DNA from: a virus | Reading direction: 5' to 3' (one strand) | Virus record (IMG/VR): IMGVR_UViG_3300006736_000070 | Coordinates: 1 to 27,869 of that record | Length of the DNA: 27,869 nt | Part shown: piece after piece, positions 7,510 through 21,848 of the stretch | How positions within the stretch are numbered: position 1 is the first letter of the stretch | Layout of the letters: the number at the start of each line of letters is the position of its first letter | Program-made: the position numbers and the translations under genes | Notes under the pieces: generated by a model | Told to the model about the DNA's origin: nothing | The model's input: only the letters and a program-made list of their open reading frames with translations | Database searches by the model: none

Positions 7510-7913
7510 TGGAATACAGAAAAGGCTATAAATATCAACTACACAAAGATGAGGTCATTGTATTAGGTGAGGCTTTCAGGACCGTTAAACCAATAAAATC
7601 CGATTTAATAGAATTATTCGATAATGTTTTAGTAGTTAAAGAGCATTATGCTTGGGATGGTGCCAGTGGCCCCACCAAAGATACGGATGATACAATGACA
7701 GCTTCTTTATGCCATGATGCCTTATACCAATTAATGAGGAAAAGGCTATTACCGCATTCTTTATGGAAACAGGCAGATAAGGAATTAATGAAACTTTTGA
7801 AAAAGAATGGAATGCCACTTTTCAGGCGCACCTACTGGAATTTTTTCCTTTCCAAAGCCAGGGGTAAACACGCCTCGCCAAAGAATGTAAAAAAAATATA
7901 CAGTGTAAAATGA
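7509..7913 (+). CDS. DUF1353-like phage protein
   Basis: A 134-residue protein with the segments YAWDGASGPT (48-57), MTASLCHDALYQLMRKRLL and ADKELMKLL...GMPLFRRTYW. This order (a GxxGPT-type turn, HDALYQ, then aD..l...ll...Gm) is that of DUF1353-like phage proteins, whose role is not established. The invariant His-Asp may be catalytic or structural. It overlaps the portal stop by one base (TAATG) and the next gene by four. Confidence 0.7.
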   Translation: MEYRKGYKYQLHKDEVIVLGEAFRTVKPIKSDLIELFDNVLVVKEHYAWDGASGPTKDTDDTMTASLCHDALYQLMRKRLLPHSLWKQADKELMKLLKKNGMPLFRRTYWNFFLSKARGKHASPKNVKKIYSVK

Positions 7914-17679: not shown

Positions 17680-18984
17680 ATGAGTATCAATGATATTGTA
17701 AATGTCAATATCACCCGGCAAACTTCCTCAGTTTCACGGGTTGGTTTTGGAACAATAAATATAATGGGGGTAAGTAAAGCTTTTACACCTCTAATTAAGT
17801 TTTATAACACTTTATCTGAAGTTGCTGAAGATTTCGACACTACTGCAAAAGAACATATTGCAGCCAGTGATGCTTTCGCACAAAATCCACAGGTAAGTAG
17901 AATTGCCATTAGCCGTAGGGCCACCTCTGATACTTCAGTTGTGACTGTTGACACGGTAACTGATTCTGTAAACTATTCAATTGTAATTGATGGTGAAACA
18001 TTCACTTTTAATTCTGGTATTGGTGCAACAGCAATCACTATTGCAGCCGGATTAGTTGGTCTTATTAATGCTTCTGGAACTTTAGCCGTAACAGCTACTG
18101 ATAACTTAGATGGCACTTTTGATCTAGATCCTGATGTAGCCAGTACAGATTATGCTGTTAAAATCGAATCTAAATTAACAATTACTTACACTACAGCAAC
18201 AACCCCAGGCGCTGATCTTACAGCTATCAATACGGCTGATGATGATTGGTATGGTCTTGTTTATACTGAAAGAGTTGAAGCAGATGTTGAAGCCATTATG
18301 GATTGGGTTGAAGCAGAATTCAAAGTATTTGCAACAGCTTCCGCTGATGCTAATATCAAAGACCAAACTGATGCGGTTGATGTAACCACTGCAGCTTATT
18401 ATGCTAAATCACAATCATTATCCAGGTCAGCGGTTTTCTACCATGCAAATGCTGCTACTCAATATCTCGATGCCGGTTTTCTTGCTGTTACTTTAGTTCA
18501 AGACCCAGGCTCTTATACTGGTATGTTCAAAACAGTTTCTAGTGTAACCGTTGACAGCTTATCTGCTACACAAGAAAAGAATGTAAAAGACAAAAATGCT
18601 AACACTTACTTAACCGTGGCTCAAGTGAATATCACAGCTGAAGGTAAAGTTGGCGAAGGTGAATATTTTGATGTAATTGTTTTTGTTGATTGGCTTAAAT
18701 CAAGGATGCAAGAGCGTATTTATTCTGTATTAGTTAATAGCTTAAAAGTACCTTATACTGATGCCGGTATTGCTGCAATTGAAGCAGAAGTTACCGCACA
18801 ACTTCAGGATGGTATTGCAGCTAAAGGGCTTACAAATAACCCTCAACCGACTGTTACAGTACCCAAAGCTATTGATATTTCTGCGGTTGATAAAGCCAAC
18901 AGAGAATTAAACGGCATAACATTTCAGGCAACACTCGCAGGTGCGATTCATGCCGTAACAATTAATGGAACCGTTTCGGTTTAA
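17680..18984 (+). CDS. Tail sheath protein (DUF3383-type)
   Basis: A 434-residue protein. It starts SINDIVNVNITRQTSSVSRVGFGTINIMG, then FYNTLSEVAEDF, AASDAFAQNPQVSRIAISRR and a variable inserted domain (about 85-165). Next are DDDWYGLVYTERVEADVEAIMDWVE and a C-terminal core with VFVDWLKSRMQERIYSVLV and FQATLAGAIHAVTINGTVSV. That is the DUF3383 layout of a contractile sheath subunit. A strong AAAGGAG site precedes it. It establishes that the phage is contractile. Confidence 0.92.
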   Translation: MSINDIVNVNITRQTSSVSRVGFGTINIMGVSKAFTPLIKFYNTLSEVAEDFDTTAKEHIAASDAFAQNPQVSRIAISRRATSDTSVVTVDTVTDSVNYSIVIDGETFTFNSGIGATAITIAAGLVGLINASGTLAVTATDNLDGTFDLDPDVASTDYAVKIESKLTITYTTATTPGADLTAINTADDDWYGLVYTERVEADVEAIMDWVEAEFKVFATASADANIKDQTDAVDVTTAAYYAKSQSLSRSAVFYHANAATQYLDAGFLAVTLVQDPGSYTGMFKTVSSVTVDSLSATQEKNVKDKNANTYLTVAQVNITAEGKVGEGEYFDVIVFVDWLKSRMQERIYSVLVNSLKVPYTDAGIAAIEAEVTAQLQDGIAAKGLTNNPQPTVTVPKAIDISAVDKANRELNGITFQATLAGAIHAVTINGTVSV

Positions 18985-18994
18985 GGAGTAAAAA

Positions 18995-19420
18995 ATGGCA
19001 GTTTTAACCTATGACCCTAGTCAAGTTATAATAAGTGTTGGCGGTATCCCAATGTCAGGTTTTGCTGATGGAACCTTTGTTTCTATTATGCGATCTGAGG
19101 ATGCTTATTCAAAAATAAATGGTGCTGATGGTGTTACATCAAGAGCAAAATCTAGTGATAAATCTGGAGAAATGACTCTTACATTAGCGCAAACTTCACC
19201 TAGCAATGATGTACTTTCGGGTATTGCTCTTGCTGATGAACTTACAAATGGTGGGGTCGTTCCCATCATTGTAAAAGATGCTTCTGGACGAACTAACTAT
19301 TTCTCAGGGAATGGATGGATCAGAAAGACACCTGAAGCGGCTTTTGGCAAAGAAGTTGATAATCGTGAATGGACGTTTGACCTAGCGGATCTTGATGTAT
19401 TCGCCGGTGGAAACGGATAA
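18995..19420 (+). CDS. Tail tube protein (DUF3277-type)
   Basis: A 141-residue beta-rich protein. It begins VLTYDPSQVIISVGGIPMSGFADGTFVSI, continues EDAYSKINGADGVTSRAKSSDKSGEMTLTL and ends in GNGWIRKTPEAAFGKEVDNREWTFDLADLDVFAGG. This is the DUF3277 pattern: tail tube subunit that stacks inside the sheath. It lies ten bases after the sheath stop with an AAGGAG site and before the chaperone, the standard order. Confidence 0.9.
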   Translation: MAVLTYDPSQVIISVGGIPMSGFADGTFVSIMRSEDAYSKINGADGVTSRAKSSDKSGEMTLTLAQTSPSNDVLSGIALADELTNGGVVPIIVKDASGRTNYFSGNGWIRKTPEAAFGKEVDNREWTFDLADLDVFAGGNG

Positions 19421-19453: not shown

Positions 19454-19903
19454 ATGATAAAAACACAGGACAAATTAATTGATGGCCAAAAGGTCGAAGT
19501 CACCCAACTGCCGGCGCGTAGAGGGTTAAAGCTAAAGCTTAAAATAACCCGCTTAGTCGGCCCTGCGTTGGGAAAATTAATTGGCGCAAAAGGCCAAACA
19601 GAATCTTTTCTGGATTCTGATATTGATATTTCAGAAATGCTTGAAAAGCTATTTGAAAATGTTGATGAAGAAACCCTCATGAACCTTATACAAGAAATAC
19701 TTGTTACCACTAGGGTCGATGGCCAGGAAGTGGCTAAAGATGAAGTGTTTGATATGGTTTTTGCTGATGGTTATGCTTTAATGTATAAAGTAGTTTGGTA
19801 TACATTGGAGGTGAACTTCAAATCTTTTTTGGAACTGATGGGTATTGGAAAAGCGAACAGCAAAGGCCAAACTCAAACGCAGAAAAAACGGAACAAAGGC
19901 TAA
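19454..19903 (+). CDS. Tail assembly chaperone, short form
   Basis: A 149-residue protein that folds on the tape measure during tail building and is not in the virion. The first half shows LPARRGLKLKLKITRLVGPALGKLIG and a charged middle; then EKLFENVDEETLMNLIQEILVTTRV, KDEVFDMVFADGYALMYKVVWYTLEVNF. It lies directly before the tape measure. Its ORF overlaps a second one in the -1 frame, and a T TTT TTG heptamer at 19825 is positioned to make the longer form. The ATG at 19447 opens only a few codons and is rejected. Confidence 0.85.
   Translation: MIKTQDKLIDGQKVEVTQLPARRGLKLKLKITRLVGPALGKLIGAKGQTESFLDSDIDISEMLEKLFENVDEETLMNLIQEILVTTRVDGQEVAKDEVFDMVFADGYALMYKVVWYTLEVNFKSFLELMGIGKANSKGQTQTQKKRNKG
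19825..19831 (+). other. -1 programmed frameshift site T TTT TTG
   Basis: In the chaperone frame the codons read TCT TTT TTG GAA. The heptamer T TTT TTG therefore has its first T as the third base of a codon, the exact phasing needed for simultaneous -1 slippage of two tRNAs. After slipping, translation continues at GGA (19831) and stays open to 20076. Confidence 0.8.
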
Positions 19904-20076
19904 GTGAAGAATTAAGGGAAGAATTTATTATATGGCGAATATGGCACAGTGGGAAAGCAACATTGGAAGAACTAGATACATTCTGGTCACTTGATGATTG
20001 CCTACGCGCTGAAGCCGTAATGGATATGTTTCAGTATTACGAAAAATTAGAAACGGATAAGGTTAATAAAAAATGA
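19831..20076 (+). CDS. Tail assembly chaperone, -1 frame extension
   Basis: The second frame of the chaperone, used only after a -1 shift: 81 residues that give a fusion of about 207 in all. It has a charged helical region (NSNAEKTEQRLSEELREEF) then IIWRIWHSGKATLEELDTFWSLDDCLRAEAVMDMF, typical of the second domain of G/GT-like chaperones. An isolated ATG at 19795 lacks a ribosome site and starts within the upstream ORF, so frameshifting is the better explanation. The stop overlaps the tape-measure ATG as ATGA. Frameshift efficiency cannot be judged. Confidence 0.8.
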   Translation, partial: GTDGYWKSEQQRPNSNAEKTEQRLSEELREEFIIWRIWHSGKATLEELDTFWSLDDCLRAEAVMDMFQYYEKLETDKVNKK

Positions 20077-21848
20077 TCGTTAGGGAATTAGTCACAAAAT
20101 TATCTTTCCGAGCTGATAACTCAGCTGTTAAACGGTTCGATCAAAATATTGGAAGATTAAAGAATTCTCTCGGTGGTGTTACTACCAATTTAAAACAAAC
20201 AGCTAATGGTATCCGTAATTTAGGGGCGGGCTTAACTGCTTTTGTAAGTTTACCTCTAGGTTTATTAGCCGGCGGAATGATTAAAGCTGCTAGTGATGCG
20301 GAAGAAACAGAGGCCAAGTTTGGAACTGTTTTTTCCAGTATACGAAGTGAAGCGGATGCCGTTGCTGATAATTTAAAAAAGAATTTTGGACTATCTTCAA
20401 ATGCTTCTAAACAATTATTAAGTGATACGGGTGATCTTTTATCTGGCTTTGGGTTTGCTCAAGATGAGACTTTAAAATTCTCTAAAGATGTTAATGAATT
20501 GGCGGTTGATTTAGCTTCATTCACTAACTTAGAGGGTGGGGCTGAACGTGCTAGTAGATCACTTACAAAAGCCCTTTTAGGTGAACGTGAATCGATTAAA
20601 GAATTAGGTATTGCAATTCTTGAAAAAGATGTGATTGAACGTGTCGCATTAAACCGATCTAAAGGAATTACAAGGGCCACAATGAGGCAAGAAAAAGCCT
20701 TGGCTACACTACAGCTCGCTCAATTACAAAGCAAAAATGCAATAGGTGATTTCGCCCGTACTTCAGAAGGCTTTGCAAACCAAATGAGGATCTTTAAAGC
20801 TAGGCTGAATGATTTATCTGTTGAGTTTGGTAAGATTCTTTTACCGGTTGCTTTAAAAGTTGTGAGGGCATTGGGAAAGGTTGTAGCAAAATTTAGCGGG
20901 TTAAGTAAATCAGCTAAAACTACGATTTTAATAATCGGTGGTATTGTGGCTGCACTTGGGCCTCTTCTTTTGGTGTTTGGTGTATTAGCTAGTGCGGTTA
21001 TTAGTTTAATTAGTTTGTTTTCAGTGTTTGGGGTATGGTTACTCCCTATAATAGCGGTAGTTGCTGCTATTAGTGCGGCGGTGGGGCTTTTGATTGAGGA
21101 TTTTATTGTCTGGACAATGGGCGGTAAATCATTAATAGGGACTTTGATAGGTAGCTTTGAAGATTTTAAGGCGAAGGTCATGCCTGTTTTATCCCTGCTA
21201 AAAGATACCTTTGTGAATTTTTGGAAAGGTGTTGTAAAAGGTGATCAGGAAGCTTTAGCTGCTTTTACTAAAAACATTGAAGAACTGGTTCCAGTATTAG
21301 TGAAGGTTACTACTAAATTATTAGGGGTGATGCTTAAAGTAGCTAAAGAACTGGGCAAACTGTTTTTTGGTATTCTTGAAAGGTTGATCTCTTCAATTGG
21401 TGGTGCCATAGCAAGGATGATTGCTTCAGCTTTTTCTAAACTGATAAAATCCACGAATAATTTATTAGACGGAGTGGTTGATGGGTTGATTGAAAAATAC
21501 CCAGTACTAGGAAAATTCTTAGTCGGTTCTGGCAAAAAAAGACCGCCAAAAGCACCGGAAACAGGGGGCAATAGTTCTGGTGGTGGATTTTTTGATAGCC
21601 TTAAAAATATAGGAAGTTCTTTTAAGGGGACGGCAAGTTCACAAAGTACAAGTGCTAATTTTGCAAGGGCTTTTAGTGTTGGTGGTAAACCTGGAATTTC
21701 CCAACAGAATCAATTCCATACAGAATTAACTGTGCAGCTTACGCCAGGAACAACAAATGAACAGGCGGAAGAATTGTTAGGCATCATTAGGGATGAAAAT
21801 GCACAAAACATTGAATCAGCAATAAACTCTTCACCGGTGGTTGAATAA
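20073..21848 (+). CDS. Tail tape measure protein
   Basis: A 591-residue protein. The N-terminal third is a helical, low-cysteine coiled coil with LSFRADNSAVKRFDQNIGRL and DNLKKNFGLSSNASKQLLSDTGDLLSGFG, typical of tape measures. Hydrophobic stretches lie at about 52-70 (GLTAFVSLPLGLLAGGMI) and 284-340 (TTILIIGGIVAALGPLLLVFGVLASAV onward), the membrane-active region. The C terminus is glycine- and serine-rich. The tape measure sets tail length; by the usual rule of about 1.5 angstrom per residue, 591 residues suggest a tail near 90 nm. Confidence 0.9.
   Translation: MIVRELVTKLSFRADNSAVKRFDQNIGRLKNSLGGVTTNLKQTANGIRNLGAGLTAFVSLPLGLLAGGMIKAASDAEETEAKFGTVFSSIRSEADAVADNLKKNFGLSSNASKQLLSDTGDLLSGFGFAQDETLKFSKDVNELAVDLASFTNLEGGAERASRSLTKALLGERESIKELGIAILEKDVIERVALNRSKGITRATMRQEKALATLQLAQLQSKNAIGDFARTSEGFANQMRIFKARLNDLSVEFGKILLPVALKVVRALGKVVAKFSGLSKSAKTTILIIGGIVAALGPLLLVFGVLASAVISLISLFSVFGVWLLPIIAVVAAISAAVGLLIEDFIVWTMGGKSLIGTLIGSFEDFKAKVMPVLSLLKDTFVNFWKGVVKGDQEALAAFTKNIEELVPVLVKVTTKLLGVMLKVAKELGKLFFGILERLISSIGGAIARMIASAFSKLIKSTNNLLDGVVDGLIEKYPVLGKFLVGSGKKRPPKAPETGGNSSGGGFFDSLKNIGSSFKGTASSQSTSANFARAFSVGGKPGISQQNQFHTELTVQLTPGTTNEQAEELLGIIRDENAQNIESAINSSPVVE

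Follow-up and report, generated by a model that had tools for sequence, protein, structure and literature searches.

The tail assembly chaperone (TAC) gene analysed here very probably gives rise to a short and a long chaperone through programmed -1 ribosomal frameshifting at a slippery heptamer, T TTT TTG. On the evidence of sequence comparison, the slippage would be stimulated by a Shine-Dalgarno-like GGAGGT upstream and, in many relatives, by a downstream stem as well. The gene lies in a window (the whole stretch of DNA that was analysed) of 27,869 nt, which corresponds to positions 1 to 27,869, on one strand, of the IMG/VR virus record IMGVR_UViG_3300006736_000070. The window is AT-rich, and a megablast comparison of its 15-25 kb region with phages gave no match. 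Table 1 provides the coordinates of the features discussed below.

Table 1. Features of the chaperone locus in window coordinates
Feature	Coordinates	Strand	Evidence or remark
Tail sheath protein	17680..18984	+	phrog_205 E 4.2e-98, PF11863 (DUF3383); context
Tail tube protein	18995..19420	+	PF11681 E 7.3e-10, phrog_280 E 1.3e-44; context
Tail assembly chaperone TAC-N, 0 frame, 149 aa	19454..19903	+	PF21822 (TAC_15) E 1.6e-24, phrog_1613 E 1.8e-28
GGAGGT, internal Shine-Dalgarno-like sequence	19807..19812	+	12 nt before heptamer; codon choice beyond amino-acid constraint
Slippery heptamer T TTT TTG, X XXY YYZ phase	19825..19831	+	in-phase XXX TTT N in 77/101 non-redundant relatives
C-terminal T domain in the -1 frame, 81 codons 3' of the shift + stop	19831..20076	+	frame conservation, third-position substitution bias
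Possible stimulatory stem, 5' arm	19839..19848	+	7 nt after heptamer; family arm swap; weak in window
Possible stimulatory stem, 3' arm	19867..19875	+	fold of window; family arm swap
Tape measure protein	20073..21848	+	phrog_991 E 2.2e-20; ATG overlaps T-domain stop (ATGA)

The genes run in the order sheath - tube - TAC - -1 ORF - tape measure - Dit-like protein - baseplate hub - baseplate J, and this order matches that of a contractile-tailed phage. The TAC gene is placed between the tube gene and the tape measure gene, as in chaperones of the lambda G/GT type, and its PF21822 match is above the family cut-off. Both profile matches of the gene in Table 1, together with the gene order, bear out the identity of tail assembly chaperone that the initial annotation had proposed.

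That annotation had also described two overlapping frames before the tape measure gene, the second in the -1 frame, and these were recovered at 19454-19903 and, counted from stop to stop, at 19789-20076, where the -1 ORF reaches the tape-measure start. The phasing of T TTT TTG for -1 slippage is exactly as first read, with AAA TCT TTT TTG GAA as the 0-frame codons around the heptamer. It is the sole full XXXYYYZ within the frame overlap; the nearby A-rich runs are out of phase, in agreement with the earlier reading. The predicted fusion has 126 + 81 = 207 aa, the length of about 207 residues originally put forward, and its junction is SFL-GTDGYW. T TTT TTG is outside the set of the most slippery heptamers in E. 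coli.

We compared this site with the rest of the window. In-phase XXXYYYZ occurs at 64 sites among 8,422 window codons, and 4 of these lead into a -1 frame of at least 60 codons; at each of the other three, the gene is ending and the following gene overlaps it. When open off-frame stretches of 83 codons were sought inside genes, 0 of 10,046 were stop-free. Sequencing error or decay of the gene may also leave two gene parts that differ in frame by a single base. However, the same virus is represented by three metagenome contigs, which contain no indel and show no difference over 19781-19930 (150 nt), and because they agree base for base, the break is not a sequencing frameshift. Dozens of divergent relatives break at the same codon, and error or decay is considered refuted, with next to no probability left to it.

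Relatives were collected with three proteins as queries, TAC, sheath and tube, which gave 101 non-redundant TAC genes; many of the loci came from searches with amino-acid patterns containing LEVN, which place no condition on codon choice. A scan of genome contigs provided one relative, within a metagenome-assembled genome, and a scan with the alignment of the T domain was of no use, the domain being too poorly conserved to serve. According to the initial annotation, relatives devoid of both the heptamer and the second frame would speak against frameshifting. It was found that the relatives keep both: an in-phase XXX TTT N heptamer at the homologous codon, followed by a long -1 frame, is present in 77 of the 101. 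The heptamer is T TTT TTN in 63 of these 77 (39 T TTT TTC, 10 TTG, 9 TTT and 5 TTA); in the others it begins with CCC, GGG or AAA, followed by TTT N. In 9 of the 77 a -1-frame stop stands immediately 5' of the heptamer, and therefore the shift is pinned to the heptamer in these relatives; in 26 more, such a stop is found within six codons. Past the TAC stop, most substitutions that separate closely related pairs are at the third position of -1-frame codons, and by this measure the T domain is under protein-level constraint beyond the TAC stop.

Another reading of the -1 ORF is that it encodes a separate protein, translated from an internal start or by translational coupling without any frameshift. 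Public records do list a hypothetical gene of its own for the second frame, and there is a TTG at 19795 in the -1 frame of the window. On the other hand, in 73 of the 77 relatives the stretch of the -1 frame from its last stop to the heptamer has no ATG; in 66 it lacks ATG, GTG and TTG alike, and in nine a stop stands directly 5' of the heptamer. The window offers the -1 frame no plausible start codon: none lies at initiation distance after GGAGGT, and the first one past the heptamer is codon 46 of the T domain, within the conserved domain. Given the conserved frame and heptamer, the -1-frame stops, the scarcity of upstream ATG and the third-position bias, independent initiation and chance are both poor explanations, and we hold a separate protein to be very improbable. 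We give an equally small chance to slippage by RNA polymerase, instead of the ribosome, on the T run. Homopolymer runs can give transcriptional slippage, but the run here is of six T only, and at this codon some relatives carry C CCT TTN or G GGT TTT, with no long homopolymer and with the tandem-tRNA phase kept. For ribosomal frameshifting, the phase, the conservation of the heptamer and of the second frame, and the lack of any other plausible entry into the -1 frame can be read directly from the aligned genes.

The GGAGGT and the downstream stem of the family were absent from the initial annotation. GGAGGT is located in the codons of the LEVN motif, and GAGG ends 13 nt (GAGGT 12 nt) 5' of the heptamer at constant spacing in 51 of the 77 relatives. 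A Shine-Dalgarno sequence is stated to stimulate -1 shifts, those of dnaX and of many insertion sequences among them, over a range of 9-14 nt (PMC5009743), and the 12-nt spacing of the window falls inside it; an alternative range of 8-11 nt has also been given (PMC6321510). With a standard anti-Shine-Dalgarno sequence assumed for the host, GGAGGT would be a strong Shine-Dalgarno element in the window.

The frameshift at the heptamer may be real while GGAGGT reflects nothing but codon preference in the conserved LEVN motif and stimulates nothing. LEVN is indeed strongly conserved as protein, which fixes the GT of Val and the GA of Glu in GGAGGT, and 11 of the 77 relatives have no GAGG element. 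What opposes this explanation, besides a spacing that fits the known stimulatory range, is the choice of codons. Glu-Val and Leu-Glu-Val occurrences from the same loci, TAC excluded, served as controls. The Glu of LEVN is GAG in 62 of 71 relatives, and among the control Glu-Val pairs the share is 195 of 462 (Fisher p 2e-13); Leu-Glu-Val is spelled with GGAGGT in 37 of 55 cases at the site and in 4 of 38 control cases (p 4e-8), although both p-values are optimistic because the relatives are not independent. The bias is not an effect of the search, as the locus patterns left the codons free. Codon usage thus indicates that GGAGGT is kept beyond the amino-acid requirement, and we consider mere codon preference unlikely.

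The stem was examined across the family. The 80 nt past the heptamer fold better than their shuffles, with a mean z of -1.6 against -0.2 and -0.3 for the controls, and the family stem begins about 5-8 nt 3' of the heptamer. As MAFFT misaligns the 3' stem arms, pairing was tested by swapping arms between relatives and not by column covariation. When the region from +5 to +18 was paired with that from +21 to +72, native arms gave -12.9 and swapped arms -9.2 kcal/mol (z -13.4). The z value was -9.6 with GC-matched swaps, and -1.4 and -0.5 for the control arms. The pair types vary at every stem position among the relatives; paired arms include GGCGGTATTG with CAATGCCGCC, GGAGGTATTT with AAATGCCTCC and AAGCAATATTG with CAATATTGCTT. 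Judged by these folds, a downstream stem is supported for the family. In the phage of the window, the stem is only possible and marginal, because its own stem is short, bulged and no better than swapped arms (rank 36 of 77); the window fold has a z of -2.04 in a chosen 44-nt stretch and of -0.14 in 89 nt.

For the protein products, the AlphaFold model of TAC-N has a pLDDT of 80, and its best Foldseek match is 5ir0 (E 0.025, TMt 0.70), the match to the HK97 TAC 2ob9 being weak (E 2.0, TMt 0.43). The T domain is predicted to be all-helical. An alignment of the T domain of the window and its relatives matches families of unknown function only, among them phrog_3976, phrog_4364 and DUF6889, and the comparison suggests that phrog_3976, phrog_4364 and Pfam DUF6889 are probably the C-terminal halves of frameshifted chaperones. 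Sequence searches of the PDB with both domains returned implausible matches only.

The mechanism that we propose is as follows. Most ribosomes would read through to 19903 and produce the 149-aa TAC-N. A minority would slip one base backward on U UUU UUG, where tRNA-Phe and tRNA-Leu would re-pair on UUU UUU, and would continue to a 207-aa TAC-N/T fusion that terminates where the tape measure gene begins. If the proteins work like lambda G/GT, tape measure binding would fall to the N part and recruitment of tube subunits to the T part. Upstream, GGAGGT would pair with the anti-Shine-Dalgarno of the 16S rRNA, holding the ribosome and raising slippage as in dnaX; in many relatives the downstream stem would slow the ribosome and add to the slippage, again as in dnaX. 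That slippage occurs, its rate and the roles of the proteins are what we infer from the features above.

TAC frameshifting as such is textbook knowledge (PMC5009743). Like the present locus, lambda gpG/gpGT has the chaperone gene directly before the tape measure gene, a -1 shift near the 3' end, and a short and a long isoform, the latter with a C-terminal T domain. They differ in that the TAC sequence families are unrelated and an upstream Shine-Dalgarno-like element exists in the phage of the window. The slippery heptamer of lambda is GGGAAAG, which differs from T TTT TTG. A conserved TAC -1 frameshift at GTTTTT was proposed for Vandenendeviridae and Andersonviridae in a December 2025 paper on phage Adele (PMC12846349), and a translational frameshift in the tape-measure chaperone was described with a Felix O1-like genome in 2015 (PMC4319497); neither paper mentions a Shine-Dalgarno element or a stem. 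The TAC of Pakpunavirus and Andersonviridae belongs to the same chaperone family, with the proposed -1 shift at the same position and a T-rich signal, and the PaP1 TAC matches that of the window by tblastn and also by HMM. Unlike the window, PaP1 and XD2 have G GTT TTT only, without GAGG. In the searchable literature on tail chaperones we found no report of a Shine-Dalgarno element or stem, and the three-part arrangement of Shine-Dalgarno element, heptamer and stem is likely, but not certain, to be new for tail chaperones.

On sequence grounds, the signal resembles that of E. coli dnaX, which likewise combines a Shine-Dalgarno-like sequence, a slippery heptamer and a downstream stem. The dnaX gene is unrelated and uses A AAA AAG in place of T TTT TTN, and its shift, which occurs at about 50%, leads to the shorter product, whereas the TAC shift would give the longer one. 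Among cultured phages, T TTT TTC stands in phase, together with a conserved -1 frame, in phiEcoM-GJ1, ST32 and Myduc (Chaseviridae), JES2013 (rV5-like) and tootiki (Felix O1-like). The upstream element is GGAGGT in JES2013 and GGAGGC in tootiki; at the place of GAGGT, the three phages GJ1, ST32 and Myduc carry GAAGC or GAAGT, and they are without a clear stem. In GenBank, the TAC of these five phages (L165, L166, L168, L169 and L172 in our set) is deposited as separate genes with no joined product.

The frameshift is an ordinary finding in kind, and it is the conserved added signal that makes this variant worth testing. With fair but clearly lesser confidence than for the frameshift itself, we propose that in a large group of phages with contractile tails, most of them uncultivated, a dnaX-like cassette of GGAGGT, a 12-nt spacer, T TTT TTN and a stem sets the chaperone isoform ratio, and that anti-Shine-Dalgarno pairing is the main stimulator where the stem is weak, as in the window. 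The variation in stimulator strength from lineage to lineage suggests tuning of this ratio. A chaperone and a hypothetical protein that are routinely annotated apart would become one gene with two products, and phrog_3976, phrog_4364 and DUF6889 are among the function-unknown families drawn into it. The relatives offer dozens of natural variants of upstream and downstream stimulators around one slip site, and in the cultured E. coli phages (rV5-like, Felix O1-like, phiEcoM-GJ1) it is possible to measure what rRNA pairing contributes to phage frameshifting.

Some further observations were made. At 20073-20076, the T-domain stop and the tape-measure start share bases in ATGA, and translation of the tape measure could be coupled to frameshifted ribosomes through this overlap. 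As a general feature of the family such coupling was rejected, the exact overlap being found in 13 of the 68 relatives with a scorable start. Elsewhere in the window, an in-phase A AAA AAA at 7889-7895, and A AAT TTA and A AAT TTG at 1211 and 1262 (1211-1268), are found close to gene ends at which the following gene overlaps in the -1 frame; these following genes have their own ATG, and frameshifting there is only a possibility. Several relatives (L039, L147, L155 and others) keep only the second half of the heptamer, T TTY. In a separate clade (L147, L155, L148, L139 and similar loci), GAGG is mostly missing at the usual place and the full heptamer is replaced by CTT TTT or CTT TTC only, but the -1 frame is kept, and a single-tRNA slip on T TTY is possible.
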